Shown: in pieces, positions 19,145 to 35,045 of the stretch | How the letters are laid out: each line of letters starts with the position of its first letter | Numbering within the stretch: position 1 is the first letter of the stretch | Assembly (NCBI GenBank): GCA_030620115.1 | Contig: JAUXFG010000026.1 | Coordinates: 1-35,301 of the forward strand | Direction: 5' to 3' | DNA: 35,301 nucleotides | Source: Candidatus Fermentibacterota bacterium | GTDB taxonomy: Bacteria; JAFGKV01 | The notes under the pieces: model-generated | Told to the model about the DNA's origin: nothing | The model's input: the letters and a program-made list of their open reading frames with translations, nothing else | The model's database searches: none | Made by a program: the position numbers and the translations under genes

Positions 19145-19220
19145 ATGGAGGGCCATCCGCCGGTTGTCGGATCTTCGATGCTTGGTCATGGCCGCCGTTT
19201 GAGCTGATACCGCAGACGCG
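19145..19220. repeat. Dispersed ~75-bp repeat (GGAGGGCCATCCGCCGGTTGTCGGATCTTCGATGC...TCATGGCCGCC), copy 1
   Basis: Near-identical text at 34976-35041 and partial copies at 19264-19295 and 25939-25995. Confidence 0.8.
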
Positions 19221-20266: not shown

Positions 20267-22258
20267 ATGAAGAATTCAATCATCTTCCAGATTGCAGTCT
20301 TCGGTCTTGCGATCTTTGTTGCCCACGGAGCAATCCCGCAGGCCATCACCTACCAAGGATGGCTGACTGACGACACCGGCTCGCCGGTGGCAGACGGCAA
20401 CTACAGTCTGACATTCAAGATCTACGACGCGGCGAGCGGCGGAACGAGTCTATGGTCCGAGACGCATCCGAGCGTAGCCGTTGCGGGCGGGCTGTTCAAG
20501 GTACAGTTGGGCAGCGTCACCCCTATCACGCCGGCATTTGACGCCCCGTACTGGCTCGAGGTCCAGGTGGGAAGCGGTTCACCCCAGACGCCGCGCATCG
20601 AACTAAGCACCGTCCCGTACAGCTTCATGGCGATGGATGCCGATCACGTGGACGGATTCGATGCGAGCGCCACACCAACAGCCAATACACTGCTGCCGCT
20701 GGATGCCACCGGGAAGTTCCCCGAGAGCGCCATCCCATCCGTACCGGCCGGCGGAACCGCAGGTGGAGACCTGACGGGGACGTATCCCAACCCCACTATA
20801 GCCGCCAACGCCGTGAACAGCGCCAAGATCCAGGACGGCCAGGTCCGGACGGCGGATATTCAAAACGACGCCGTGACGGTGGCCAAGATCGCGCCAAACA
20901 TAGTCTCCAGTGTTGACGGGGTTAACAACGACGGCGGCGACATCGACCTGGTTGCCGGCGCAAATGTCACCATCACGCCCAACGACGGCGCCAACACGAT
21001 TACGATTGCTGCCAGTGGGGGCACCGGGGGCGACATCACAGGTGTAGGCGCCGGTCAGGGCTTGACAGGCGGAGGCACGTCTGGAGATGTCTCGTTGGAC
21101 GTGGGCGCCGGCACCGGCATAGCGGTCAGCACTGACGCTGTGGGGCTGACGTCGGCCTACGCCAACGGAGGCGCCTACGACAGCCGATTCGTCAATGAGG
21201 GGCAGAGCAACTCCGTTACCAGCGACATGATCGTGGACGGGACGATCCAGCAGGGGGATCTGGGCTTCTCTGCCGGAGACGTGACGGCGGTGTGGTCGGG
21301 AGAAGGACTCGACGGGGGCGGTGACCAGGGCGACCTTACCCTGGCCGTAGCCAATCCCCTGGAACTGACGGGGAGCTCGAACGGAGTGATCCAAGGCACC
21401 CACACAGACGGCAACTACGGCCTCCTTGGTGACGGCGCCCGGGGAGTCCTCGGCCACGGGGCAAGCGGCAACTGGGGCTACCTCGGCGGCGAGAGCGCCC
21501 GTGGCGCATACGGATGGCACGCCAACGGCCACTCGGGAGGTCTCGGCACGGCCAACTACGGCGTGGAGGGCAAGAACACCAACGGCAACTGGGGCACGCT
21601 CGGCAACAACAATAACGGCGCGTATGGGGAGTACGCCGCCAACGGCAACTACGGGTACCTCGGCAGCGTGAGCCAGGGTGCCACCGGGGTCAACGACAAT
21701 GGCAAGTATGGGGCCCTGGGCAGGGCCAGTTACGGCGTGTACTACTCCGGAGGGCTCGGAGGCACCGGAACAAAGAGTTGTATCGTGAAGACTTCACAGG
21801 GCCCCACGGCTCTCTACTGCCAGGAAAGCCCCGAGGCGTGGTTCGAGGACTTCGGCGAGGGAGCGCTGGTGAACGGCCGGGCCCACATCGAGCTCGACCC
21901 CCTGTTCCTGGAGACGGTCACCATAGATGCAAGCAACCCGATGAAGGTCTTTGTGGAGCTCGGTGGTGACTGCAATGGGGTGTATGTGGCGAAGGGCGCA
22001 ACGGGCTTCGACGTCGTTGAGCTGCAGGGCGGCGCCTCGTCGGCACCGTTCGACTATCGGGTTGTGGCCAAGCGGGCGGATTTCGAAGAGCAGAGGCTGG
22101 AAGTCTGCGAGGAGGCCAGGGACGATCCCTACCTCTATCCGGAGTTGAGAGAGAAGCAGATCCGCGAGCGAGAGCGAATGAAGGCGGCAAGGGAAGAGGA
22201 GGCACGCTTGGAGCGAGAGCACCCTGAGACCGCCGGGAGACTGAGCCCCAAAGGATAG
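20267..22258 (+). CDS. Secreted fibre-like protein with Gly/Asn-rich internal repeats
   Basis: Signal peptide; AITYQGWLTDDTGSPVADGNYSLTFKIYDAASGGTSLWSETH; repeats such as NGNYGYLG/NGNWGTLG...GAYG; conserved tail WFEDFGEGALVNGRAHIELDPLFLETVTIDASNPMKVFVELGGDCNGVYV. GGAG RBS. Confidence 0.8.
   Translation: MKNSIIFQIAVFGLAIFVAHGAIPQAITYQGWLTDDTGSPVADGNYSLTFKIYDAASGGTSLWSETHPSVAVAGGLFKVQLGSVTPITPAFDAPYWLEVQVGSGSPQTPRIELSTVPYSFMAMDADHVDGFDASATPTANTLLPLDATGKFPESAIPSVPAGGTAGGDLTGTYPNPTIAANAVNSAKIQDGQVRTADIQNDAVTVAKIAPNIVSSVDGVNNDGGDIDLVAGANVTITPNDGANTITIAASGGTGGDITGVGAGQGLTGGGTSGDVSLDVGAGTGIAVSTDAVGLTSAYANGGAYDSRFVNEGQSNSVTSDMIVDGTIQQGDLGFSAGDVTAVWSGEGLDGGGDQGDLTLAVANPLELTGSSNGVIQGTHTDGNYGLLGDGARGVLGHGASGNWGYLGGESARGAYGWHANGHSGGLGTANYGVEGKNTNGNWGTLGNNNNGAYGEYAANGNYGYLGSVSQGATGVNDNGKYGALGRASYGVYYSGGLGGTGTKSCIVKTSQGPTALYCQESPEAWFEDFGEGALVNGRAHIELDPLFLETVTIDASNPMKVFVELGGDCNGVYVAKGATGFDVVELQGGASSAPFDYRVVAKRADFEEQRLEVCEEARDDPYLYPELREKQIRERERMKAAREEEARLEREHPETAGRLSPKG
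21401..21760 (+). repeat. In-frame degenerate repeats coding NGNYG.LG....GAYG/GVYG units
   Basis: Translation TDGNYGLLGDGARGVLGHGASGNWGYLGGESARGAYGWHANGHSGGLGTANYGVEGKNTNGNWGTLGNNNNGAYGEYAANGNYGYLGSVSQGATGVNDNGKYGALGRASYGVYY. Confidence 0.8.
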
Positions 22259-22444
22259 CGCGCCGTTCCCGGCCTTTCCACAACGAGCGCCGTGAGGAGG
22301 AGATGCGGGATTTTTTCCTCTTCTCCTCCTCACAAACCTCATCTGGAGCTTCATCAGGAGTCTCATCGAATCCCTCGATCCCTCTTTCTCCCATCCCCGC
22401 CCCAGTTCCCCAATTCGATCCCATATTCCCCATTCCCCTCTGTT

Positions 22445-22496
22445 AGCCCGGACTTCTCACCGGCTTCGCTTCGAAAGCCGGTGAGAAGTCCGGGCT
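22445..22496. repeat. Perfect 22-bp stem hairpin (8-nt loop), possible terminator/REP-like element
   Basis: AGCCCGGACTTCTCACCGGCTT-cgcttcga-AAGCCGGTGAGAAGTCCGGGCT; exact arms. A half-copy, gccggtgagaagtccgggct, is at 19451-19470. Confidence 0.9.
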
Positions 22497-22678
22497 ATAC
22501 TGCGAAGCCTAGTGGAACCAACGTGCCACGGAAAACGTCATCCAAAGGGCCGTCATGACCATCATGATTTTGACACCGTTGCGGGTGTCGTGTAGTTTTG
22601 TCAATGAAGACTGGCAGCCTTGGTTGTGTTGAGGATACGCAGGACATCCCTGCGGCCCCCCCGGGAAGGAGAAGATCG

Positions 22679-24076
22679 ATGAAGAGTGCAAGACTTGTCT
22701 TGATGTCCCTTCTTTGTGTTTTCGCGTTTGAGGCCTACGGCGACTGGCCGATGGTCAATGGCGGAATGCACCGCACATCGTGGGCGCACGAAGAAGGGGA
22801 GCTTCGACCACCGTTCGATGAGACATTTACCTACTCGTGTGACGGGCAAATGCTCGCGGTGAAGGGCGACACCTTGTACATCGGTCGATCCACCGGTCCC
22901 AATTCGGTGGTTGCCGTCGACTTGGAGAGCGGTCTGGAATTCTGGACCTTCGAGATCGAGGGTTCGGGTGCTTCCATGAACTCTGTTCCGGCAATCTCGG
23001 ACTCCTATGTTTTCTGTGGTGGTCAAGGAGGTCTTGGTCTTTTCGCGGTGGATCGTTTCACAGGTGAGGAGGTATGGCGGCAGGAAATCGGGTCGATGTA
23101 TTCCAGAAATCCTGTTACCGACGGTGATCGTGTATTCGTCGTGACGGATGAACTGTACTGCTTTGATGCGGAAACCGGGGCAACTCTTTGGACATTCCCT
23201 GCGAGCGAATCGCTGACGCCTGCGGTAGACGATTCATGTGTCTACGTCAACACGGGCCAGCTTTCCGCACTGGATAGAGTAACCGGCGCCGTGAAATGGT
23301 CTGTCCCGAGTTCAGGAGGGAATCAGACACTCACCATCCATGAAGGCATGCTGTTTCTCCAAGAAGGAGAGGCTATCGTTGCAAGGGATAAGTCGAATGG
23401 TGATCTCGTCTGGTCATACGAGCCTGAGGACGCCTACATTCCTTCTTTCAGCGTAGGAGCGCTGGCGGTGTCGGATCGAGTCCTCTGCTTCGACATCTGG
23501 GAAGATGCAGATCAACGAGCGCAACTTGTTGCGTTGGAGACCGCATCCGGAGAGCACCTCTGGCATGCATCATTCGACACCATCGGGGTCTACACGCCAA
23601 CCATCGCCAATGACGTTGTGTATGTCGTGGAATGGATTCCTCAGGTACTCTGGGGATTCGATATTGACTCGGGCGACGTGCTTCTCACCGATGCGTCCAC
23701 AAGCTATTACAATCAGCCTATCGCGGCTGCCCATTCGCTATTGATCCCAGGGTTTTCGACGGTGACGCGATTCCGGAATTCAGTTCCTACGGATGGAGAC
23801 GGCGATACTCGGATTCAGATACTCCTCCTTTCTGCACATCCCAATCCATGCATGAACAAGGCGAGTTTCTCCTTCTATGCTCCGTCTGGAGGTCCAGCAG
23901 AGCTGAGCGTCTTGGATATGGCGGGCCGCGGTGTTCTGACCATGGGCCTTCAAGTCGTATCTCCGGGGCGCCATGCTCTCTTGCTTCCGACCCTCGATCT
24001 CCCGGCCGGAACGTACACGTGTCGAATGAACGTGGGCGGATGTGTAGCATCTCACCGTCTCGTTGTGCTGCGATAG
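22679..24076 (+). CDS. Secreted PQQ-like beta-propeller repeat protein
   Basis: Signal peptide MKSARLVLMSLLCVFAFEAYG after AAGGAG; repeats VVAVDLESGLEFWTFE, LFAVDRFTGEEVWRQE, LYCFDAETGATLWTF, LSALDRVTGAVKWSV, VALETASGEHLWHAS; C-terminal sorting-like domain HPNPCMNKASFSFYAP. Confidence 0.9.
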   Translation: MKSARLVLMSLLCVFAFEAYGDWPMVNGGMHRTSWAHEEGELRPPFDETFTYSCDGQMLAVKGDTLYIGRSTGPNSVVAVDLESGLEFWTFEIEGSGASMNSVPAISDSYVFCGGQGGLGLFAVDRFTGEEVWRQEIGSMYSRNPVTDGDRVFVVTDELYCFDAETGATLWTFPASESLTPAVDDSCVYVNTGQLSALDRVTGAVKWSVPSSGGNQTLTIHEGMLFLQEGEAIVARDKSNGDLVWSYEPEDAYIPSFSVGALAVSDRVLCFDIWEDADQRAQLVALETASGEHLWHASFDTIGVYTPTIANDVVYVVEWIPQVLWGFDIDSGDVLLTDASTSYYNQPIAAAHSLLIPGFSTVTRFRNSVPTDGDGDTRIQILLLSAHPNPCMNKASFSFYAPSGGPAELSVLDMAGRGVLTMGLQVVSPGRHALLLPTLDLPAGTYTCRMNVGGCVASHRLVVLR

Positions 24077-24116: not shown

Positions 24117-25700
24117 TCACGGCCGGATTTCGATGCCAACGGCAGCTCCCCGGTTGCGCCATTCGGACTGCATGTAGCCCGTTGTCGCCAAGTCCACCTG
24201 TATGTGTAGGAATCTCTTGCCCCCATCCTCTTCGACCCCCCAGCCCTGCAAGCGATGACGTATGGTCTTGGGCCCGTTGGCCGCTCCGAGTACGCGTACC
24301 GTTGATGGAATCGGGTAGTTATCAGGCAGTTCAACGGATATCAAGGCCCGGTCATTGAACATGTTCTGTTTGAATGCGAGATAATCGTGGAATGTGTCGG
24401 TAAAGATGGCCTTGTACTCGGTATTATTCATGATGGCGCCGACTATCAGCACAGAACCCTTTGCTTCCGTCGTGATCTCCAGAGGAGGGGGCGCATCGAG
24501 GGGTGAGAGAACTCTCAATGACGGATCACCGAAAAGAACCCGCGATCCGGTACCCTTCAGCATGATTTCCGCAGGAGTCCACCGGGGCGCATGCATCCCG
24601 TCGGTGAGGATTTCGAACTCGGGTAACACTCCCCCGTTTCCCAATACGATGCCGTCATGGGTATACTTCATGACCTCGCCCAGGGACGCCCCACGCCAGG
24701 CCATATACTCCATCTCCTGATAGACCGGTATGCCGTGATCCGGGTGGAGGGCGGCGAGGTAGCCGACGACGTTATTGGCCAGCAGTTGAAGAGAGAAGGA
24801 CTCGACAGGATCGATCATCTTTTGGACGATCCTGCCTCCGGGATCAAACATGTCGTATGACCTGCCACACACCCCGGTGTAGCAGACCCCGCTGAAGACC
24901 ACGCAGGGATCCAGTTCCGCCTGGCCGACCTGCGATGCCGTCAGGCCGTCATCGATCCGGTCGGGATGACCGTGTCCGCCCAGGTGGACGATCCCGGCGC
25001 CTTTCATGGCGTCGAGCCACTCGCCCCTATAACCGCCGCTTCCATGCGAGATACCCTGGAGATCCATTGCACTGCCGAGCACTGGTACGAAGTAGGATCC
25101 GGGAAACACATTGAAGAGATCGGCTCCCGCCTGGGAATTGGGCCCCAAATTATCGATCATTCTTGCGGGCAGCGCCAATTCCCCGGAAACGGCCCGGGAT
25201 ATTCGATCGACGAAACGCGCTGCATCTTCGGCAGATGCCCCGGTAATGAAACCGGTTCTCGTATCAACGAAGGGATCACCGTCGACACGGGAAGTCATGG
25301 TCAACCACCGCCAGCCGAAGTTCACATCCAGCTCCTCGGGTATCATGAAGAGTTGAACATAATACGGCTCGTGTTTCTTGAGCAGTCTCTCGGCGGTTGA
25401 GAGATCATCCGGTGAGAACGTCTCTACAGGTGCCTCGGGATGGAGCGCCCGTGTTTCCGCGAGAGCATCGACATACGACGTGGAAGCCTTTTCAGTGACG
25501 AGAATCAGAAACGAATGGGACGTATCGAGCTCAACCTGCAGAACGCCATGTGACTTGCCCTTGACGGTGCTTCGGCACGATGACGTGAGGACGACGGACA
25601 GCGCAACAACCACGGAGATACAGCCGATGATCATTCCTAAGACCGCACCCGTCGGCAGCCTTGTTCTATTTGAAGACTTTGATTCGATTTGGTGAGACAT
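24117..25700 (-). CDS. Membrane-anchored predicted clan-CD (caspase/gingipain C25-like) peptidase domain protein
   Basis: Start MSHQIESKS at 25700 with AGGAG RBS (ORF open to 25778); N-terminal TM segment. GIVHLGGHGHPDRIDDG...LDPCVVFSGVCYTGVCG resembles a clan-CD His-Gly / Cys dyad; GSRVLFGDPSLRVL is typical of a C25-like end. Confidence 0.6.
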   Translation of the reverse strand: MSHQIESKSSNRTRLPTGAVLGMIIGCISVVVALSVVLTSSCRSTVKGKSHGVLQVELDTSHSFLILVTEKASTSYVDALAETRALHPEAPVETFSPDDLSTAERLLKKHEPYYVQLFMIPEELDVNFGWRWLTMTSRVDGDPFVDTRTGFITGASAEDAARFVDRISRAVSGELALPARMIDNLGPNSQAGADLFNVFPGSYFVPVLGSAMDLQGISHGSGGYRGEWLDAMKGAGIVHLGGHGHPDRIDDGLTASQVGQAELDPCVVFSGVCYTGVCGRSYDMFDPGGRIVQKMIDPVESFSLQLLANNVVGYLAALHPDHGIPVYQEMEYMAWRGASLGEVMKYTHDGIVLGNGGVLPEFEILTDGMHAPRWTPAEIMLKGTGSRVLFGDPSLRVLSPLDAPPPLEITTEAKGSVLIVGAIMNNTEYKAIFTDTFHDYLAFKQNMFNDRALISVELPDNYPIPSTVRVLGAANGPKTIRHRLQGWGVEEDGGKRFLHIQVDLATTGYMQSEWRNRGAAVGIEIRP

Positions 25701-26372
25701 CACCGTTACTCCTTTCGCCCTTCCCATGCTCCGCCCTGGAGAAACACGACGAATCCGATCGTGTCTAATTCCTTGCAAATCGCCATTTCCATCTTCGCTT
25801 TACAATATAACTTCTTCAAATGAACCATCAATCCATCGGGTCATGGCTTGCCGAAGATCAGACGTTGGCGCCGATACCGCGGGCGTGATCCGCCAGCTGG
25901 CGGACGTCCCCTCCATAGACAATACGTACACATTCCACGCTGGAGGGCCATGCTCTGTCATGGCCGCCGTTTGAGCCGATACTGCGGACGCAAGCGTATT
26001 TGGGGGATGTTGTTACCGAAGTTACATGACGAAATGGACAGTCTATACACTTATACACGCTGACAGAAGAAGAGCAATGGATGCAACGGGCATTGATAGA
26101 AAAGGGCAAACTATAGCAGACCTAGGTACCGAAGTTACTCAACGGACGACTGAGCGGGGCGATATTGATTGTAAGCATGAAGAGGGAGGGGTCACTCACC
26201 GAGCTGTAGGCTCTACGAGCTGGAAGCCCATCGCGTTATAGGCTGATATCCCTTCGACTTCGCCCTTTGTCCATAAGGCCTCCCAGAGAAGCATCCGTGC
26301 CATACCATGTTCGATTATCTGTATCAGATCTTGAGGACTTGAGTCCCTTGAGCACCAGAATCGATATCTGAG

Positions 26373-26655: not shown

Positions 26656-28320
26656 GTGGCCACTATGTATGTTGATTCATGCTCTACTAGCAGCAACGGA
26701 AGAACCTACACACGCCACCTCCTCAGGAAAAACTACCGTGCGGGGGGGAAGGTCAAACATCATACTATTGCCAATATCTCGGATTGCTCAGATGAAGAGA
26801 TAGCCGCTATCAAGCTTGCGCTGCGCTACAAGAAAGATCTCACCTGTCTGGGTACAGTGAAAGAAGATCTCAGCACCCACCAAGGAAGTTCAGTTGGAGG
26901 GGTGTGGCTTTTGCACTCTGTGAGCAAGAGGCTTGGAATCGTGAATGCGTTGGGGAACAGCCGAGAAGGCAAACTGGCATTGTGGCAAGTGTTGGCGCGA
27001 GTAATCGATCAGGGATCACGACTATCTGCAGTACGATTGGCAGGGCGGACAGCGGCGTGTGACGTTTTGGGATTGGACAGTTTCAACGAGGATCATCTGT
27101 ACAAGAATCTCGAATGGCTGTATGAGAAACAGGAGAAGATAGAAGATAGGTTGTATAGGTTCCGGCGGGGAGAGGAGAAGGGTGAGCTATTCTTATATGA
27201 TGTAACGAGCAGCTACTTGGAGGGGGATCATAACGAGTTGGGGGATTGGGGATACAACCGAGACAAGAAGAAGGGGAAGAAACAGATAGTAGCAGGGCTG
27301 TTATGCGACGAGGGAGGGGCGCCGGTATCGATACAGTTGTATAGGGGGAACACGCAAGATGTGACAACGTTTGGAGATCAGGTGAGGAAGATATCGGAGT
27401 GCTTCGGCGGGGGCACCGTAACGGTGGTAGGAGATCGAGGGATGATCAAGGGGCCGCAGATGGAGGAGCTGAGAGGCGCGGGGTTTCATTATATCACCGC
27501 GATAACGAAAGCGCAGATACGGAAATTACTGAAGGGAGGAGTGCTTCAGCTGGAACTGTTCGACGAGGAAGTGGGGGAAGTGGTAACGGAGGAAGAGGAG
27601 CGCTACATTTTTAGACGGAATCCAGCCAGGGCAGAGGAGATACAGAAGACGCGAGAAGAGAAGATGAGGTCGCTGGTCAAGAAAACAAGAGTCCAAAACG
27701 AATATCTGAAGGAGCATCCCCGAGCGAAAGAGTCGGTAGCTACGAGGAATCTGGAGGCATACGCAAAGAAGGTTAAGATATCGGGCTGGGCGAGGGTGAT
27801 TGGAACAGATCGAGTATTGCGGATTGAGATTGATGCGGAAGAATTGGAGAAGGAATCAGAGTTGGATGGTTGCTATGTTCTGAAGACAGATGTGAACAAA
27901 GAGACGCTGCCGAAGGAGAGAGCGCATGAGAGGTACAAAGATCTGAAACTGGTAGAGGACGCATTCCGGACGAGCAAGACGGAGGTACTGGAGATGCGCC
28001 CTTTGTATCTGCGCAATGAGATACGGACACGAGGGTTCGCAGTAGTAGTCATGCTGGGGTATTCCTTGGTCCGGGAGTTGAAGCGCTGTTGGGTGAACTT
28101 GGAATGCACGGTAAACGAAGGCATAAAGGAATTGCAGACATTGTGCACCACCGAGGTTCGACTTCGAGGCAAGCCGTTATTGCATGAGATCCCGGAAGCC
28201 AACGAGGGGAACAGAGCGTTGTTGGCAGCAGCGGGAGTTCACCTACCCGAGGCGTTGCCGAATCGAGGAGTAAAGGTAGCCACCAGAAAGAAGCTGAGCT
28301 TGAAGCGAATAAGGCGTTGA
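26656..28320 (+). CDS. IS1634-like (IS4-group DDE) transposase
   Basis: N-terminus TYTRHLLRKNYRAGGKVKHHTIANISDCSDEEI; DDE-type blocks LYDVTSSYLEG, VVGDRGMIKGPQMEEL and RYKDLKLVEDAFRTSKTEVLEMRPLYLRNEIRTRGFAVVVMLGYSLVREL. GTG at 26656 or ATG at 26665. Confidence 0.9.
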   Translation: MATMYVDSCSTSSNGRTYTRHLLRKNYRAGGKVKHHTIANISDCSDEEIAAIKLALRYKKDLTCLGTVKEDLSTHQGSSVGGVWLLHSVSKRLGIVNALGNSREGKLALWQVLARVIDQGSRLSAVRLAGRTAACDVLGLDSFNEDHLYKNLEWLYEKQEKIEDRLYRFRRGEEKGELFLYDVTSSYLEGDHNELGDWGYNRDKKKGKKQIVAGLLCDEGGAPVSIQLYRGNTQDVTTFGDQVRKISECFGGGTVTVVGDRGMIKGPQMEELRGAGFHYITAITKAQIRKLLKGGVLQLELFDEEVGEVVTEEEERYIFRRNPARAEEIQKTREEKMRSLVKKTRVQNEYLKEHPRAKESVATRNLEAYAKKVKISGWARVIGTDRVLRIEIDAEELEKESELDGCYVLKTDVNKETLPKERAHERYKDLKLVEDAFRTSKTEVLEMRPLYLRNEIRTRGFAVVVMLGYSLVRELKRCWVNLECTVNEGIKELQTLCTTEVRLRGKPLLHEIPEANEGNRALLAAAGVHLPEALPNRGVKVATRKKLSLKRIRR

Positions 28321-28742: not shown

Positions 28743-28915
28743 TGGGAGAGGGGAACGAGACCGGACCGGCGTAGTAGAAAGAGTCGAGCGAAAGAAGAAG
28801 TCGTTTTTTCGCGCGGTGTCTCTTGACTTGCCCTCTTGTCTGAGACTCCTGTACTATCACGAGTCTCATTCACGAAGAATCCGGTGGCACGCCGGGGGCG
28901 GGGCTAATGGGTGAC
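28743..28915 (-). repeat. Left arm of ~175-bp imperfect inverted repeat bracketing the KGGVGRS operon
   Basis: Reverse complement reads GGTCAcccATTAGCCCCGCCCCCGGCGTGCCACCGGATTCTTCGTGAATGAGACTCGTGATAGTACAGGAGTCTCAGACAAGAGGGCAAGTCAAGAGA..., matching 34591 onward. Confidence 0.92.
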
Positions 28916-29213
28916 CCCGCAACCTCCAATCTCTCTTCCTGGCGAACCGGGCTTATCCCTGCAAATGCTTTGCACACTCTGCTCCTCAGGCCCGCGCAAC
29001 GGTATCGTTCTCGCGTTAACCATGCTGAGGCCACAACCTTGGGCAGATGTTCCTTGACACTCGCATGCCGTGGAGCTTATTGTTGCATCTCTGCTGTCCC
29101 ATGTGAAAAACTGACCTGCCATGGGATGATGTTAAGATTATTCTTGTAGATTTACTGCAAGGATCATCTGCCCTAGTTGTGATACTTGCTGGTAACACGG
29201 ACACGAGAGGACC

Positions 29214-30203
29214 ATGGACTTCAACAAGGCACTGGAGCCCCTGCCTGAGCAAGATAGGAGCGCGGCGGGGGAGTGGTACAGCGCTCTGATTTCCAGACGG
29301 GACGAGGCGGTCCGGCCCGGTTCCCTCAAGATCAGCGGCGAGACCCCAATCCCCCAAGAGTATCAGTGCGCCGTGAACTGGTACAACGTCCATATCGAGT
29401 CACACCTCACGGATAGTGACCAGTCGACTTTCGCTGATTTCATCGCGAAGGGATGGCACAACACTCCAGATGAACCGCTCAAGTCCATACATTGGCGGAC
29501 TCTCATGGAGATTTGTTGTGAGCAAGAGTACCAAGATGCTCTTGCCGCTCACGGCGAACAAATCGACAATGCGGCCCTCGATGATGAGATCGGGGAGCAT
29601 CTCGTTTCTTTCATTTCGTCCGATAGCCTCAATCAGCGCGTGGATTCCGATGGCGATTCATTTGTTTGCTGGCCGCCTGATCCATCAGTTCCACTTGACG
29701 CGGCCAGGATCGTGCGTGATTTCTTCGAGAATCCGTCTCCGGTCGTCTGGTGCAGTTCGTGGAAACGAATCGAAGGCGACTTGAGCAAAACATGCCGCTT
29801 TGATGAGACTGGTCAAAAGCTCGGTCTGTCGCATGCGTCAACGACGGTCGATCCGCCCGGCGAAAGATTCTATGGAATTCGCTTCGCCACAGCCCTCTTG
29901 AAAAAGGAGTGCAGATTCCCTACAGTGGCGGACGCGCGGATGTTTCACGTTTTCGAGCCCTCTACAGACCGGATCGGACGCACCTTGGATCTCAGAAATG
30001 GAGGCACAGGCCTCCCGGAGGTCGTTCTGAAGAGAACGCATCTAAGCGAAAAGCATCAGCAGAACCCGAGCGTTGCCGATGTGGCGGTGTGTCACGCCCC
30101 TGGTGCTGATGCCCAACAACATACTTGGGTTCTTAGTCGTCCCATCGGATGTGAGCCCCAGCATATGCGCACTCGCCTTGCGCGTGTACGAAACGCACTG
30201 TAA
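29214..30203 (+). CDS. Protein of unknown family (island ORF1, 329 aa)
   Basis: ATG with GAGAGGA upstream; full-length ORF just upstream of two co-oriented genes; no motif recognised. Confidence 0.75.
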   Translation: MDFNKALEPLPEQDRSAAGEWYSALISRRDEAVRPGSLKISGETPIPQEYQCAVNWYNVHIESHLTDSDQSTFADFIAKGWHNTPDEPLKSIHWRTLMEICCEQEYQDALAAHGEQIDNAALDDEIGEHLVSFISSDSLNQRVDSDGDSFVCWPPDPSVPLDAARIVRDFFENPSPVVWCSSWKRIEGDLSKTCRFDETGQKLGLSHASTTVDPPGERFYGIRFATALLKKECRFPTVADARMFHVFEPSTDRIGRTLDLRNGGTGLPEVVLKRTHLSEKHQQNPSVADVAVCHAPGADAQQHTWVLSRPIGCEPQHMRTRLARVRNAL

Positions 30204-30219
30204 TTCGGAAAGAGAAAAC

Positions 30220-31290
30220 ATGTCCAAAGATCCGTATATGGCTCGTATTAAATGGCTCGCCACCCAGACTGAAGCACAATGCCTACAAGTGTTTCGTGAT
30301 CGTCTTGTGTACTCGGCCGACAAAGGTCTTCCCGTCGATGAGGCTCGTGGCGAGAGACCGGAGCAGTTTCTTGTCTGGGCATTTCAGCACAATGATGTCG
30401 CGTTCAGAAAGAAGTGCGGACGCTCGTTGATGCTCCTCATCAACGAGCTCTTGGAGCAGATCAGCAGCGGGCATGAGGACCGTGTCGCCGCACTGTCTGG
30501 GACGTTGCATGTGGCCGCCCAAGCGTACGTTATTCCTGCTGCTGAGCCACTTCAGAAATGGTTGATCGATAAAGGACATCTCTCCGACTTCGCAAGGATG
30601 GGTCTTCTCCGTTCGCGGGGGAGATACTCATGGGATGTGCTTCATCAGGCTCTCATGACCTTGTCCATCCTGGAGTCCATCATCCCGAACCCCTCGAAGC
30701 ATGTTCTCTCACCACCGTTCTGGGAGGACATGTTGATGAAAGACGATCCTGCGGGGTTCCGTGGCCTCGCCGTAAGAGGCCTGGGCTATCTCGATTGGCA
30801 ACGAGGCCTTCGGTGGCTACCGGCCTTCATTGATGAGGTTCTAGGTCCAACTTCGCCACGGCATTCAGACGACGCCGTGCTCAGCATCGCTGCGGCTATC
30901 AGGTTCTTCTTCGACCGTTCTGAGGCCGACAGATCTCTCATCACTGAAACCCGTCTGATCGAGAGGCCAGATCTCCTTTCCGAAGTCCTGCGCGCGGAGT
31001 ATCGGTTTGGGCCTGGCCTCCACGCCGTGCTTGACTTGATCCAGAAAGTCATCGGTTATCTCCTGGCGCGACAGGACGTATTCTCCGACCCGGCCGACAA
31101 AACCAAATGGGAGGAGTTTTCCAAGTACTTCACTGTGACAATCACGCAGCCCGTCCCCCTCAAGCTCGTGAGTTGGGAACAGGAGAAACAAGCGGAACAG
31201 GGCGCACAAGGCTCGTGGCTCACGTATGCGTATGATGATTGGAATGAAGCGCGGCATTTGAAACAGCACAGAGCTCTGGCTGCAATCTGA
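30220..31290 (+). CDS. Predicted alpha-helical protein of unknown family (island ORF2, 356 aa)
   Basis: ATG at 30220 (MSKDPYMARIKWLATQTEAQ) preceded by GGAAAGAG, 16 nt after the ORF1 stop; the ORF is open from 30073 but that would overlap ORF1. The stop overlaps the ORF3 start (TGATG). Confidence 0.75.
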   Translation: MSKDPYMARIKWLATQTEAQCLQVFRDRLVYSADKGLPVDEARGERPEQFLVWAFQHNDVAFRKKCGRSLMLLINELLEQISSGHEDRVAALSGTLHVAAQAYVIPAAEPLQKWLIDKGHLSDFARMGLLRSRGRYSWDVLHQALMTLSILESIIPNPSKHVLSPPFWEDMLMKDDPAGFRGLAVRGLGYLDWQRGLRWLPAFIDEVLGPTSPRHSDDAVLSIAAAIRFFFDRSEADRSLITETRLIERPDLLSEVLRAEYRFGPGLHAVLDLIQKVIGYLLARQDVFSDPADKTKWEEFSKYFTVTITQPVPLKLVSWEQEKQAEQGAQGSWLTYAYDDWNEARHLKQHRALAAI

Positions 31291-34200
31291 TGAAGACGAT
31301 TACTTTCTTCTCATACAAGGGTGGTGTGGGCCGATCGATGCTCCTGGCCAATGTAGCCTGGCACATGGCCTCCCTCGGCAAGCGTGTGGCGATCATTGAC
31401 TTCGACCTGGAAGCTCCGGGATTATCCCTGGTCCCTGAGCTGAATCCCGGATGCCCACAGAGCCCTGACCGGTACGGGCTGACCGATTTGATGCAGGATA
31501 GAATTGATGCTTCGGATGGCAAGAAGCCAGTTCCGAAGGTGGAGAACTACGGCTCGTGGGTGGAAGGTCCCTCTGAGTTTGGAACGCACGGGAGCATTTT
31601 TTTCCTTCCCTGTGGATCCGTCCGATTGCCTCTTGGTCACAATGTCGCGAGTGCTCTCGAAGGCATTCAGACTGACATCAGCGAGATCCTTCACTGTGAG
31701 TACTTGTTCGTCGACTCACGGACTGGTCTGAGCGACGTGGCTGGGATCACAACCGTCTTCCTCCCCGATCTTGTGTTCGTCGTGCTGGGCCTAAATCGTC
31801 AAAACATCGAAGGGACGATGGAGGTGCTGACTCAGCTAAAGGAAACCGACTTGCCTCAGTATGTCTACCTCGTTCCTTCGCTGACCCCGCTTGGCAAGGA
31901 TCAGGAAGTGGCGCAGATCCATACGGCCCTCCGCCAGCGGCTGAAGGAGTTCGGTATTCCAGAGGACAGACTCCTCGCGGATTTCGCTTTGGATTACCAT
32001 CCTCAGTTGGCGATAAGTGACGCTCCTGTCATCGGCAAGGGCGTAGCGCTGGCCACCGAGAGACAATACAGGCGCCTCGCTAACAAGATCATTGCGCTTA
32101 ATGAAGATGATCCGATAACAAGGAAGGAAAGAGCGAAGAAGCTGATGGAAGAGAAGGACTACGTCCAGGCACTGCGCATCCTCGGTTCTGTTGTCAGGCG
32201 TCCCGAATTCGCCGAGGATGTCGAAGTCCTTCGAGCATATGGGCGCGTTTGTGTTGAGACAAAGAACCTGGCCGAAGCCGTGAATGTCTTGGCCAGGGCT
32301 CTGCGCATCGAACAGAAAGCGGGACGAGACGAGGAATCACGTACCATTAATACCGCACTTGTCTATGCTGACGCAATCCAGGACGAGCGAGACGTCCAAA
32401 GTGCTTTCCTTGAGGAGGCCCGCAAGTTTAGAGGTTCGAATGAAGAAAGACGGACCCTTTACCAACGACTATCCGATGCCTACGCAGCTTCGCCCATGGA
32501 CGTTCCTAATCTAATGCGCGCAAACGACGAAATAGCTCGGCTGGACCCGTCCGTCGCATGGATGTCCGCCCAGGGGCGAGCAAGGGTTTACATGCTGTGG
32601 CAAGACAAGAACGCGGCGAGACAGGTGTTTGAACGCGAGATCGATCGCTACCCCACCGGCGAAAAAGGACTGGCCGACTTGCTGATAGGGTATGGCCGGT
32701 TCTTGGAGGAGCTGAAGGAGTCGCAGTCCGCGATTGATCAATACCTCAAGGCCTTGAAAGCCAAACCTGAGGACCCCGTTTGGGTGTGGCTGAGGATCGC
32801 CAATATCCACTGGTTCCATATGCCAGAAGGCAAGAGGACTGCGATAGTCGAACTACGTCGGGCAATCGATTTAGTCGGTGAAGATGAGAGGCTTTGGGAA
32901 GACCTATCCGTGTGCTACGAGCTTGAGAATGATCTGCGGTCAGCGATGGAGTGCCGAAAGGCTCGCATAGCTATTGCACCTTGGGACCGTCTGAACGACA
33001 TATCCATAATCGCGAGATTGGGATCCAAGCTCGGTCTGGATACTCTCAAGGACCACGAGGAGGATCTTTTTGGGGAGATTAAGGCAAACCCGACTTGGCA
33101 CTACGCCTATGTCGCGCTTTCCGTGCTCTATAGCTTCAACTCCAGGTTCGAAGACGCTGCTCACGTCTGTCTGGATGGCGTAGAGGCATGCCGCACCATC
33201 GAAGCCAAAGACGGCTTTGCATCCACCTTGGGCAAACTGAGGGGCTCAGATGAGGCAATTGGCCCGGCGATCGAAGCCCTCAAAGCACCTGGTTTTCGGG
33301 ATGTGCCTCATGCCAGGCTTAATATCACCTACCTCGCAGTTCGGAAAAGGGATTGGGCTCTTGCGGTGGATCAGGCCCTGGAGTACGTGAGGATGGCCTC
33401 TCCGGCTGATGCCAGTGATGCCGCGGCGCGTGCCTCAGATCTCTTGGAACGTATAGGTCGGGTAGACGAAGCCATGGCCCTTCTTGGGGATGAACTCGCG
33501 TCAAGGCCTGAAGACACGCGGCTCTACATGAAACTAGCGGCCCTTCAGGACAGGTCGGGTAACTTCGTCGGGGCATTGAAGACGCTTGAGGAGTTTGAGC
33601 GGAAGACACACGGCTTCCACGCTGATGACATCCTGCCGATGCGAGTACATGTTATAGGAGAGCAGATGGGAGATGTCGAGGGGGCCCGGCGAGCAATCAG
33701 GGAGGCGATCAAGAAATACCCAGACGACCGAGCCCTGAGAAAGCAGGCCGCATATGCTTGGGACAGACTGGGTGATACCACGGAATCGAGGAGGATCTGG
33801 CGTGCTTTCATCGACTATGGTGAGGACAAGCACGTAATGGGGTGCCAGTCCTTACTTGGTCAGTCGTACCTAGAATCAGGAGACCCAACGAAGGCCTTGT
33901 CGGTATTTGAGAAGCTGATCGAGAGTCGTAACAGCAAGTCTCGACCGCTGCTCTTTCTCCGACTCGTTTGCCTTGAAGAACTGCGCAGTCCGGTAGATGA
34001 GGCAATCGATGAACTCAGGACTCTACATAGAGACACGGAATCGGCCAAGACAGATACACAAACTATGGGACGCGTGGTACGTTTGTCGCTTAGGAGTCGA
34101 CCCGACTTGGAGCGCGCGCGGCAGTTCTCTGAATGGATTGATGACTACGATGTTAACCAGGCTAACGCAAAGCTGCGAAGTACCGAGGCGCTCTACTGCT

Positions 34201-34403
34201 TCTGCACAGACCAAACCGAGCAGGGCTTTGCGGCGCTAAAACACGCACTCTCGCTCGGCTACTGTCACGAATGGCGACATGGGTTTCTTCACGATCTCAA
34301 ACTGTTCGCGGCTGAGCATCATCTCGAATCGATCATCGAGGAAATCAGCAGCGTGGTGTTGCATCGAAGGAGCAGTCCAAAATCACGCAAGCCCACCAAG
34401 TGA
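31290..34403 (+). CDS. KGGVGRS-motif ParA/MinD-like ATPase fused to C-terminal TPR-like repeats (island ORF3, 1037 aa)
   Basis: MKTITFFSYKGGVGRSMLLANVAWHMASLGKRVAIIDFDLEAPGLSLVPEL (deviant Walker A and DFDLEAPG), FVDSRTGLSDVAG; the C-terminal ~700 aa is a chain of TPR-like helices, e.g. EAVNVLARALRIEQKAG and SAIDQYLKALKAKPEDPVWVWLRIANIH. Confidence 0.92.
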   Translation: MKTITFFSYKGGVGRSMLLANVAWHMASLGKRVAIIDFDLEAPGLSLVPELNPGCPQSPDRYGLTDLMQDRIDASDGKKPVPKVENYGSWVEGPSEFGTHGSIFFLPCGSVRLPLGHNVASALEGIQTDISEILHCEYLFVDSRTGLSDVAGITTVFLPDLVFVVLGLNRQNIEGTMEVLTQLKETDLPQYVYLVPSLTPLGKDQEVAQIHTALRQRLKEFGIPEDRLLADFALDYHPQLAISDAPVIGKGVALATERQYRRLANKIIALNEDDPITRKERAKKLMEEKDYVQALRILGSVVRRPEFAEDVEVLRAYGRVCVETKNLAEAVNVLARALRIEQKAGRDEESRTINTALVYADAIQDERDVQSAFLEEARKFRGSNEERRTLYQRLSDAYAASPMDVPNLMRANDEIARLDPSVAWMSAQGRARVYMLWQDKNAARQVFEREIDRYPTGEKGLADLLIGYGRFLEELKESQSAIDQYLKALKAKPEDPVWVWLRIANIHWFHMPEGKRTAIVELRRAIDLVGEDERLWEDLSVCYELENDLRSAMECRKARIAIAPWDRLNDISIIARLGSKLGLDTLKDHEEDLFGEIKANPTWHYAYVALSVLYSFNSRFEDAAHVCLDGVEACRTIEAKDGFASTLGKLRGSDEAIGPAIEALKAPGFRDVPHARLNITYLAVRKRDWALAVDQALEYVRMASPADASDAAARASDLLERIGRVDEAMALLGDELASRPEDTRLYMKLAALQDRSGNFVGALKTLEEFERKTHGFHADDILPMRVHVIGEQMGDVEGARRAIREAIKKYPDDRALRKQAAYAWDRLGDTTESRRIWRAFIDYGEDKHVMGCQSLLGQSYLESGDPTKALSVFEKLIESRNSKSRPLLFLRLVCLEELRSPVDEAIDELRTLHRDTESAKTDTQTMGRVVRLSLRSRPDLERARQFSEWIDDYDVNQANAKLRSTEALYCFCTDQTEQGFAALKHALSLGYCHEWRHGFLHDLKLFAAEHHLESIIEEISSVVLHRRSSPKSRKPTK

Positions 34404-34590
34404 GGACCATGGTGACTCGATGTCGCCGGTGGCGGTTAGTCCCTTCAAGTGCGCACGTGGTCCTCCGACTTATCGGCGAATGTCCTGAACACCTCCACAA
34501 GCTGATGAATGCTCTCGCTGCCACCAGCAATCACGCCTCCCGTTAGCCCAAGTTCACCTCTCTGAAAAGCGAATGGGGGGCAGAAATGAG

Positions 34591-34772
34591 GGTCATTCAT
34601 TAGCCCTGCCCCCGGCGTGCCGCCGGATTCTTCGTGAATGAAACTCGTGATAGTACAGGAGTCTCAGACAAGAGGGTAAGTCAAGAGAAAAAGACACCCC
34701 TCCGAGCGAAAGAGCGCCCTCTTCTTTCGCTCGACTCTTTCCACTACGCCGGTCCGATGTCGTTCCCTTCTC
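34591..34772 (+). repeat. Right arm of ~175-bp imperfect inverted repeat bracketing the KGGVGRS operon
   Basis: ggtcattCATTAGCCCTGCCCCCGGCGTGCCGCCGGATTCTTCGTGAATGAAACTCGTGATAGTACAGGAGTCTCAGACAAGAGGGTAAGTCAAGAGA...CTTCTTTCGCTCGACTCTTTCCACTACGCCGGTCCG; inverted match to 28743-28915. Confidence 0.92.
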
Positions 34773-34851
34773 CTCTCTTCGCTCCCGTTACATCGCTTAA
34801 GTTGGGTTGCAATCAGTTCACACTGATCCGCGCCAGGGGGACGGGTTACTA

Positions 34852-34954
34852 GGGGACGTTGGTGCAGAGAGTGCGCAAGTCACCCGGGTACCAAAAACTC
34901 CTGGTATTGTGGCCTTCTCCAGACAGCCTCAGCACTTTCCGCACCAACGTCCCC
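34852..34954. repeat. MITE-like element with ~23-bp terminal inverted repeats
   Basis: GGGGACGTTGGTGCAGAGAGTGC (34852-34874) versus reverse complement of 34932-34954, GGGGACGTTGGTGCGGAAAGTGC; 21/23 identical. Confidence 0.75.
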
Positions 34955-34969
34955 CAAATACCATCCGCT

Positions 34970-35045
34970 GGAGCGCCATCCGCCGGTTGTCGGATCTTCG
35001 ATGCTCCATTATGGCCGCCATTTGTGGCGATACTTCGGACGCGGT
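34970..35045. repeat. Dispersed ~75-bp repeat, second full copy
   Basis: GGAGcGCCATCCGCCGGTTGTCGGATCTTCGATGCtccattATGGCCGCCaTTTGtggcGATACttCGGACGC matches 19145-19220. Confidence 0.8.

Follow-up and report, generated by a model that had tools for sequence, protein, structure and literature searches.

The window, i.e., the whole stretch of DNA analyzed here (35,301 nucleotides, an entire contig), carries three adjacent genes on its forward strand. ORF1 (gene A; 29214-30203, 329 amino acids) is composed of an N-terminal helical region and a C-terminal domain with the sequence RFPTVADA...PEVV, ORF2 (gene B; 30220-31290, 356 amino acids) encodes a predicted helical, adaptor-like protein, and ORF3 (gene C; 31290-34403, 1037 amino acids) encodes a KGGVGR-type ParA/MinD-like ATPase (residues 1-183) followed by an array of TPRs. 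A gap of 16 nt separates ORF1 from ORF2, and ORF2 and ORF3 overlap in TGATG. Rereading of the window ORFs bore out the tight operon, with the same lengths, order, and junctions, described in a sequence-only reading of this DNA. The start of ORF2 was placed at ATG 30220, despite a program call opening upstream at TTG 30073, because the homolog from a Desulfobacteraceae genome begins at the same place (MSEWDPY/MSKDPY). The GC content of the three genes (0.55-0.56) shows no shift from that of the remainder of the window (0.555). Elsewhere in the window, secreted proteins with FlgD/Por-type C-terminal tails (20267-24076) and a C25-peptidase-like protein (24117-25778, E 0.004) are encoded, which suggests that this lineage has a sorting-tail secretion system.

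ORF3 belongs to a known class of ATPases. Its residues 1-183 match NCBIfam NF047398, the KGGVGR-motif variant AAA ATPases, with 117.9 bits (cut-off, 90), and several Pfam TPR families match the protein after the ATPase domain, so that the ATPase-TPR fusion read from the motifs KGGVGRS and DFDLEAPG holds. The KGGVGRS motif retains the signature lysine (K10) and has arginine (R15) where a P-loop normally has lysine; both residues are invariant among 13 relatives. KGGVGR ATPase-TPR proteins are widespread and their partner genes mostly unannotated; in the open-access literature, we found no paper treating the motif.

ORF1 and ORF2 had been assigned to no recognized family, and in agreement with this neither protein has a match in Pfam, NCBIfam, or PADLOC. 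Two weak hits of ORF1, to PHROGs (E 0.097) and to TRIM16 in a phmmer search (E 0.29), were judged to be at chance level. When ORF1 and ORF2 were searched as single sequences against plasmids, phages, viral contigs, and as many as 386 genomes from the domain, each retrieved nothing other than itself. Relatives were detected via the ATPase. An ATPase alignment used to scan GTDB species genomes yielded 80 loci, and in nearly all of them the ATPase gene has a tightly coupled upstream gene; clusters of these upstream genes include 45 MqsA-like Zn-ribbon/HTH proteins and nine helical proteins of approximately 265-300 amino acids. In one of the loci, from a Desulfobacteraceae MAG (L037), the ORF3 homolog is alignable over its full length (27% identity, E 2e-113) and is preceded by homologs of ORF1 and ORF2 in the order found in the window, the second and third genes again overlapping. 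The nine loci encoding the helical proteins (gene B) have a further gene of approximately 265-280 amino acids in front, present as a fragment in L046, giving the order A-B-C. The three genes are co-directional and closely packed in L038, L043, L044, L050, L058, L061, L069, and L072, and partly so in L046, which lies at a contig start.

These nine wider loci stem from MAGs of Contendobacter and Rhodoferax (both Pseudomonadota), three Verrucomicrobiota, a member each of Lentisphaerota and Rhodothermota, and two unclassified bacteria. Together with Thermodesulfobacteriota (L037) and the phylum of the window itself, A-B-C operons thus occur in at least six phyla. Conserved ORF1-ORF2-ORF3 synteny in unrelated genomes was the key prediction of the sequence-only reading, and it came true in L037 and in the nine more distant loci, as did the co-occurrence of ORF1 and ORF2 homologs with KGGVGR-TPR ATPases. 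The window is itself a member of the new A-B-C family, gene A and gene C being related to it in profile and BLAST searches and gene B strongly related to that of L037 only. Its distribution is sparse. Three genomes of the window's phylum were covered, and ORF3 is absent from the two covered genomes of the same family. Of 291 Verrucomicrobiota genomes and 269 Pseudomonadota genomes, a single one each has a close gene A homolog, namely the genome that supplied the query. Gene A is single-copy in 11 of 11 genomes. Scans of plasmid, phage, and viral-contig collections, which reach close relatives only, returned no copy of gene A or B.

Gene A constitutes a new protein family with the signature [HR]xPT[VI]ADA...PE[VL]V, as judged from sequence comparison. 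ORF1 and its L037 homolog match each other in BLASTP (5e-7). A profile built from seven of the nine wider loci, with the window left out, recovers ORF1 (E 0.0015 for the full ORF and 2.9e-4 for a fragment) as well as the L037 protein (E 0.0016), and profile-profile comparison (hhalign) of ORF1 with the wider gene A set gave a probability of 89% and E 2.6e-6. As a regular expression, [HR]xPT[VI]xD[AS]...G.T...PE[VL]V occurs solely in A-B-C operons among approximately 11,000 ORFs of all loci. An AlphaFold model of ORF1 from two sequences was unusable (pLDDT 34). With AlphaFold2, gene A of L043 together with nine homologs, including ORF1, was predicted well (pLDDT 84.7, pTM 0.82), as an N-terminal helical bundle followed by an alpha+beta C-terminal domain. 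Foldseek searches with this model returned nothing significant (best E 0.6 in the PDB and 0.52 among viral models), which is evidence that the fold is unsolved and does not prove it to be new. In ORF1, conserved polar residues surround the PTVADA/PEVV core.

For ORF2, sequence homology is strong to the L037 protein (phmmer, 2e-8), which has an equal start and position, and weak to gene B of the nine wider loci. With the latter, hhalign aligned 165 colinear columns (P 7.5e-4), and the score of 33.3 compares with a mean of 21 (standard deviation, 2.9; maximum, 32.9) in 80 block shuffles. Since ORF2 reached a nonsignificant E of 7 in a search with the gene B profile of the nine loci alone, the link to these loci relies on the profile-profile score, the block shuffles, and gene position. 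An ORF2 profile searched against 396 genomes from the L037 phylum found L037 alone.

In a tree of 100 ATPase domains, the window groups with L037 (support, 99), and a second clade unites three neighbors with the remaining A-B-C loci (support, 99). Together, the two clades lie on one side of a branch whose support of 68 is not significant, which is compatible with a single origin as well as with separate ones. The L048 locus of the second clade shows that the upstream module can be exchanged: its ATPase and the L043 ATPase are 66% identical, but a single, different gene takes the place of A-B. The gene directly upstream of the ATPase gene in L038, L043, L058, L048, and L072 ends in an S/T-x-KL-C/V-like tail, an ending common to gene B proteins and the unrelated L048 replacement protein, as would fit a shared docking tail. 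Among the 45 MqsA-like partners (e.g., L031:7440-7994, L027, L095, and L101), an F.L[RK]-like motif was seen near the C terminus. Of these 45 proteins, 33 have the looser pattern F/Y-x-L/I, picked after the tails had been seen, within their final 18 residues (shuffled mean, 6.9; maximum, 14; 1000 shuffles). The ATPase-TPR protein may recognize the F.L[RK] tail for docking or cleavage.

Distant gene A homologs were detected in five further genomes among the 269 Pseudomonadota scanned. In each of the six loci from these five genomes, gene A is followed by a gene for a helical or TPR protein, and a KGGVGR ATPase is lacking. By hhalign, gene A is supported for two of the three pairs of loci compared (probability, 95-96%) and receives weak support for the third pair (61%). 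Homology of gene B was supported solely for the L147/L148 pair (P 3.7e-5); for L145/146 and L149/150, the tests back gene A and not gene B. Behind the A-B pair of L148 lies a third gene (L148:10215-12560) encoding an unrelated 782-amino-acid protein, in which PIN-nuclease-like motifs (DTDVII and LTGDRS) were noticed by eye; the protein has no Pfam match and the PIN reading is thus unconfirmed by Pfam.

Within the searches made, the A-B-C operon is a real, conserved, and undescribed unit, and it adds a new partner module to an ATPase class already known. That it is spread patchily over phyla, has changing neighbors, and exchanges partners speaks for an accessory unit that moves horizontally, and the order kept across at least six distant phyla suggests an accessory system that is undescribed and possibly of defense type. 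We therefore consider ORF1-3 most likely to be a rare NTPase-controlled accessory module. That they act together as a functional unit, namely as a nucleotide-controlled multicomponent system of conflict-like character that is rare and has spread horizontally, is in our estimate an evenly balanced proposition. In such a system, ORF3 would bind nucleotide via its KGGVGR domain and serve as a switchable scaffold, its TPR array might hold the helical adaptor ORF2, and ORF2 might in turn position ORF1. The latter could be a sensor or an effector, released or engaged upon a change in the state of the ATPase. The present data establish the operon, its gene order, the homologies, the nature of ORF3, and the predicted fold of the ORF1 family; that the proteins form a complex, which of them senses and which acts, and the biological role are inferred.

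The modular, patchy pattern fits a conflict-type system. Counting against it are the housekeeping neighbors, the lack of copies found on plasmids, phages, or viral contigs, the lack of a toxin or nuclease domain, the unshifted GC content, and the single copy per genome. A neighborhood search had been proposed for conserved synteny in unrelated genomes and in defense islands; synteny was found in unrelated genomes, and an enrichment in defense islands was not, since the 50 neighbors of the nine homologous loci, a small sample, are mainly housekeeping genes with one clear PADLOC defense match, PD-Lambda-2_B. Likewise, no toxin or nuclease domain is recognizable in ORF1-3.

Several of these observations would suit a different role of the operon, namely as a regulatory or localization module of normal physiology, positioning or signaling for a cell structure in the manner of ParA/MinD relatives, which do such work. 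One copy per genome, housekeeping neighbors, and average GC content would be expected of such a module; its very sparse distribution, the lack of fixed neighbors, and the swapping of A-B upstream of ATPases that are 66% identical (L043 versus L048) speak against it, and we consider this role rather unlikely, if credible. We are similarly hesitant about a bolder version of the conflict-like reading, which is possible but improbable: A-B would be an exchangeable core joined to varying partners, which in one branch would be a KGGVGR ATPase-TPR switch and elsewhere another third gene or none, and gene A would provide a new effector or sensor fold, amounting to an undescribed immune or conflict class located outside defense islands.

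It is also conceivable that ORF1 is toxic and is restrained by ORF2, together with ORF3, in a toxin-antitoxin-like arrangement. The close-packed operon would be in line with this, as would the plasmid-borne KGGVGR-ATPase relatives that lie behind MqsA-like genes and near toxin-antitoxin or recombinase genes. However, neither sequence nor structure revealed a toxin fold, and no stand-alone two-gene version was found on plasmids, which makes this arrangement distinctly improbable.

The operon had furthermore been read as the possible passenger of a mobile element, being bracketed by long inverted repeats and located next to an IS. Both features exist. An IS1634-family transposase gene (26656-28320, + strand; NF033559, 280 bits, cut-off 100) adjoins the operon and lies outside it. 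The left (28745-28917, - strand) and right (34590-34790, + strand) repeat arms share 99 nt at 94% and 72 nt at 88% complementarity and match far above chance (E 4e-58). The bracket consists of two inverted copies of a dispersed repeat of approximately 200 bp with at least five copies in the genome. Single copies also lie on three other contigs: a full-length one on C17, one on C291 that reaches the contig end, and a split one on C239. The right arm is more similar to the C17 copy (91% over 247 bp) than to the left arm (85%). In view of these single copies and of the closer relation of the right arm to C17, we do not treat the arms as element ends; those of a TIR transposon are element-specific and as a rule nearly identical, and the arms found here are not. 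A composite or passenger mobile element with terminal inverted repeats, for which the two inverted arms of approximately 175-200 bp around the operon and the adjoining IS1634 transposase gene would speak, is thus highly improbable, given the single copies at three other sites, the lower similarity between the arms than between the right arm and the C17 copy, the different neighbors of homologous operons found elsewhere via their genes, the absence of a transposase gene between the arms, an operon GC content equal to that of the surroundings, and the failure to find a copy on plasmids, phages, or viral contigs in scans reaching close relatives only. The repeat arm folds only slightly better than shuffled sequences (z -1.7), so we claim no RNA element, and an Rfam search over the window returned nothing. 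A second dispersed repeat (34970-35044 and 19146-19220) is 84% identical over 75 bp, and a 23-bp inverted repeat lies at 34852/34954 in the repeat-rich end of the contig, which is reached about 500 bp beyond the right arm.

Returning to the preferred reading of a rare accessory module, its relation to described systems can be specified. We show here that one branch of KGGVGR ATPase-TPR proteins is accompanied by a conserved module of two partner proteins; this module has a family-wide signature and a confidently predicted fold lacking a solved relative. This provides concrete residues and a three-gene unit for testing in phyla whose defense systems are poorly sampled, and A-B-C was found outside defense islands, on which most discovery depends. 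With the relatives in NF047398, ORF3 shares the motifs K-G-G-V-G-R, DxDLExPG, and DSRTG, but it differs in its longer TPR tail (1037 amino acids in total) and in its upstream pair, whereas most of these relatives have a single upstream gene, often of the Zn-ribbon and HTH (MqsA-like) type. The ATPase domain of ORF3 also matches PDC-M28B of PADLOC (6.5e-20). However, it covers just positions 129-194 of the 438 of this profile, part of the P-loop domain, and a full-length example of 438 amino acids from an Enterobacter plasmid has other partners, while ORF1 and ORF2 match no PADLOC model; PDC-M28 systems combine a full-length B protein with its partner genes, a combination not present in ORF1-3. 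On a Sphaerotilus plasmid (L034), a PDC-M28-like KGGVGR ATPase gene was seen within a BREX-2 cluster; on an Enterobacter plasmid (L036), another is flanked by a TIR gene and a tyrosine recombinase gene.

The NTP-dependent ternary conflict systems of Kaur et al. 2020 (PMC7159879), in which VMAP/iSTAND proteins are combined with vWA-MoxR, resemble A-B-C in their three-gene logic and fixed order and also make use of TPR and MinD/ParA-like domains; the latter were reported there as effectors and predicted to be inactive (PMC7159879). ORF1-3 differ in that vWA, MoxR, VMAP-C, and iSTAND domains have no Pfam match in them or in the scanned homologs (for iSTAND, as far as Pfam covers it), which places them outside the VMAP/iSTAND class. 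Effector displacement within a kept operon context is a signature of conflict systems (Kaur et al. 2020, PMC7159879), and the partner exchange and patchy, modular spread of the A-B-C operons correspond to this one signature, which is compatible with defense and not in itself a demonstration of it.
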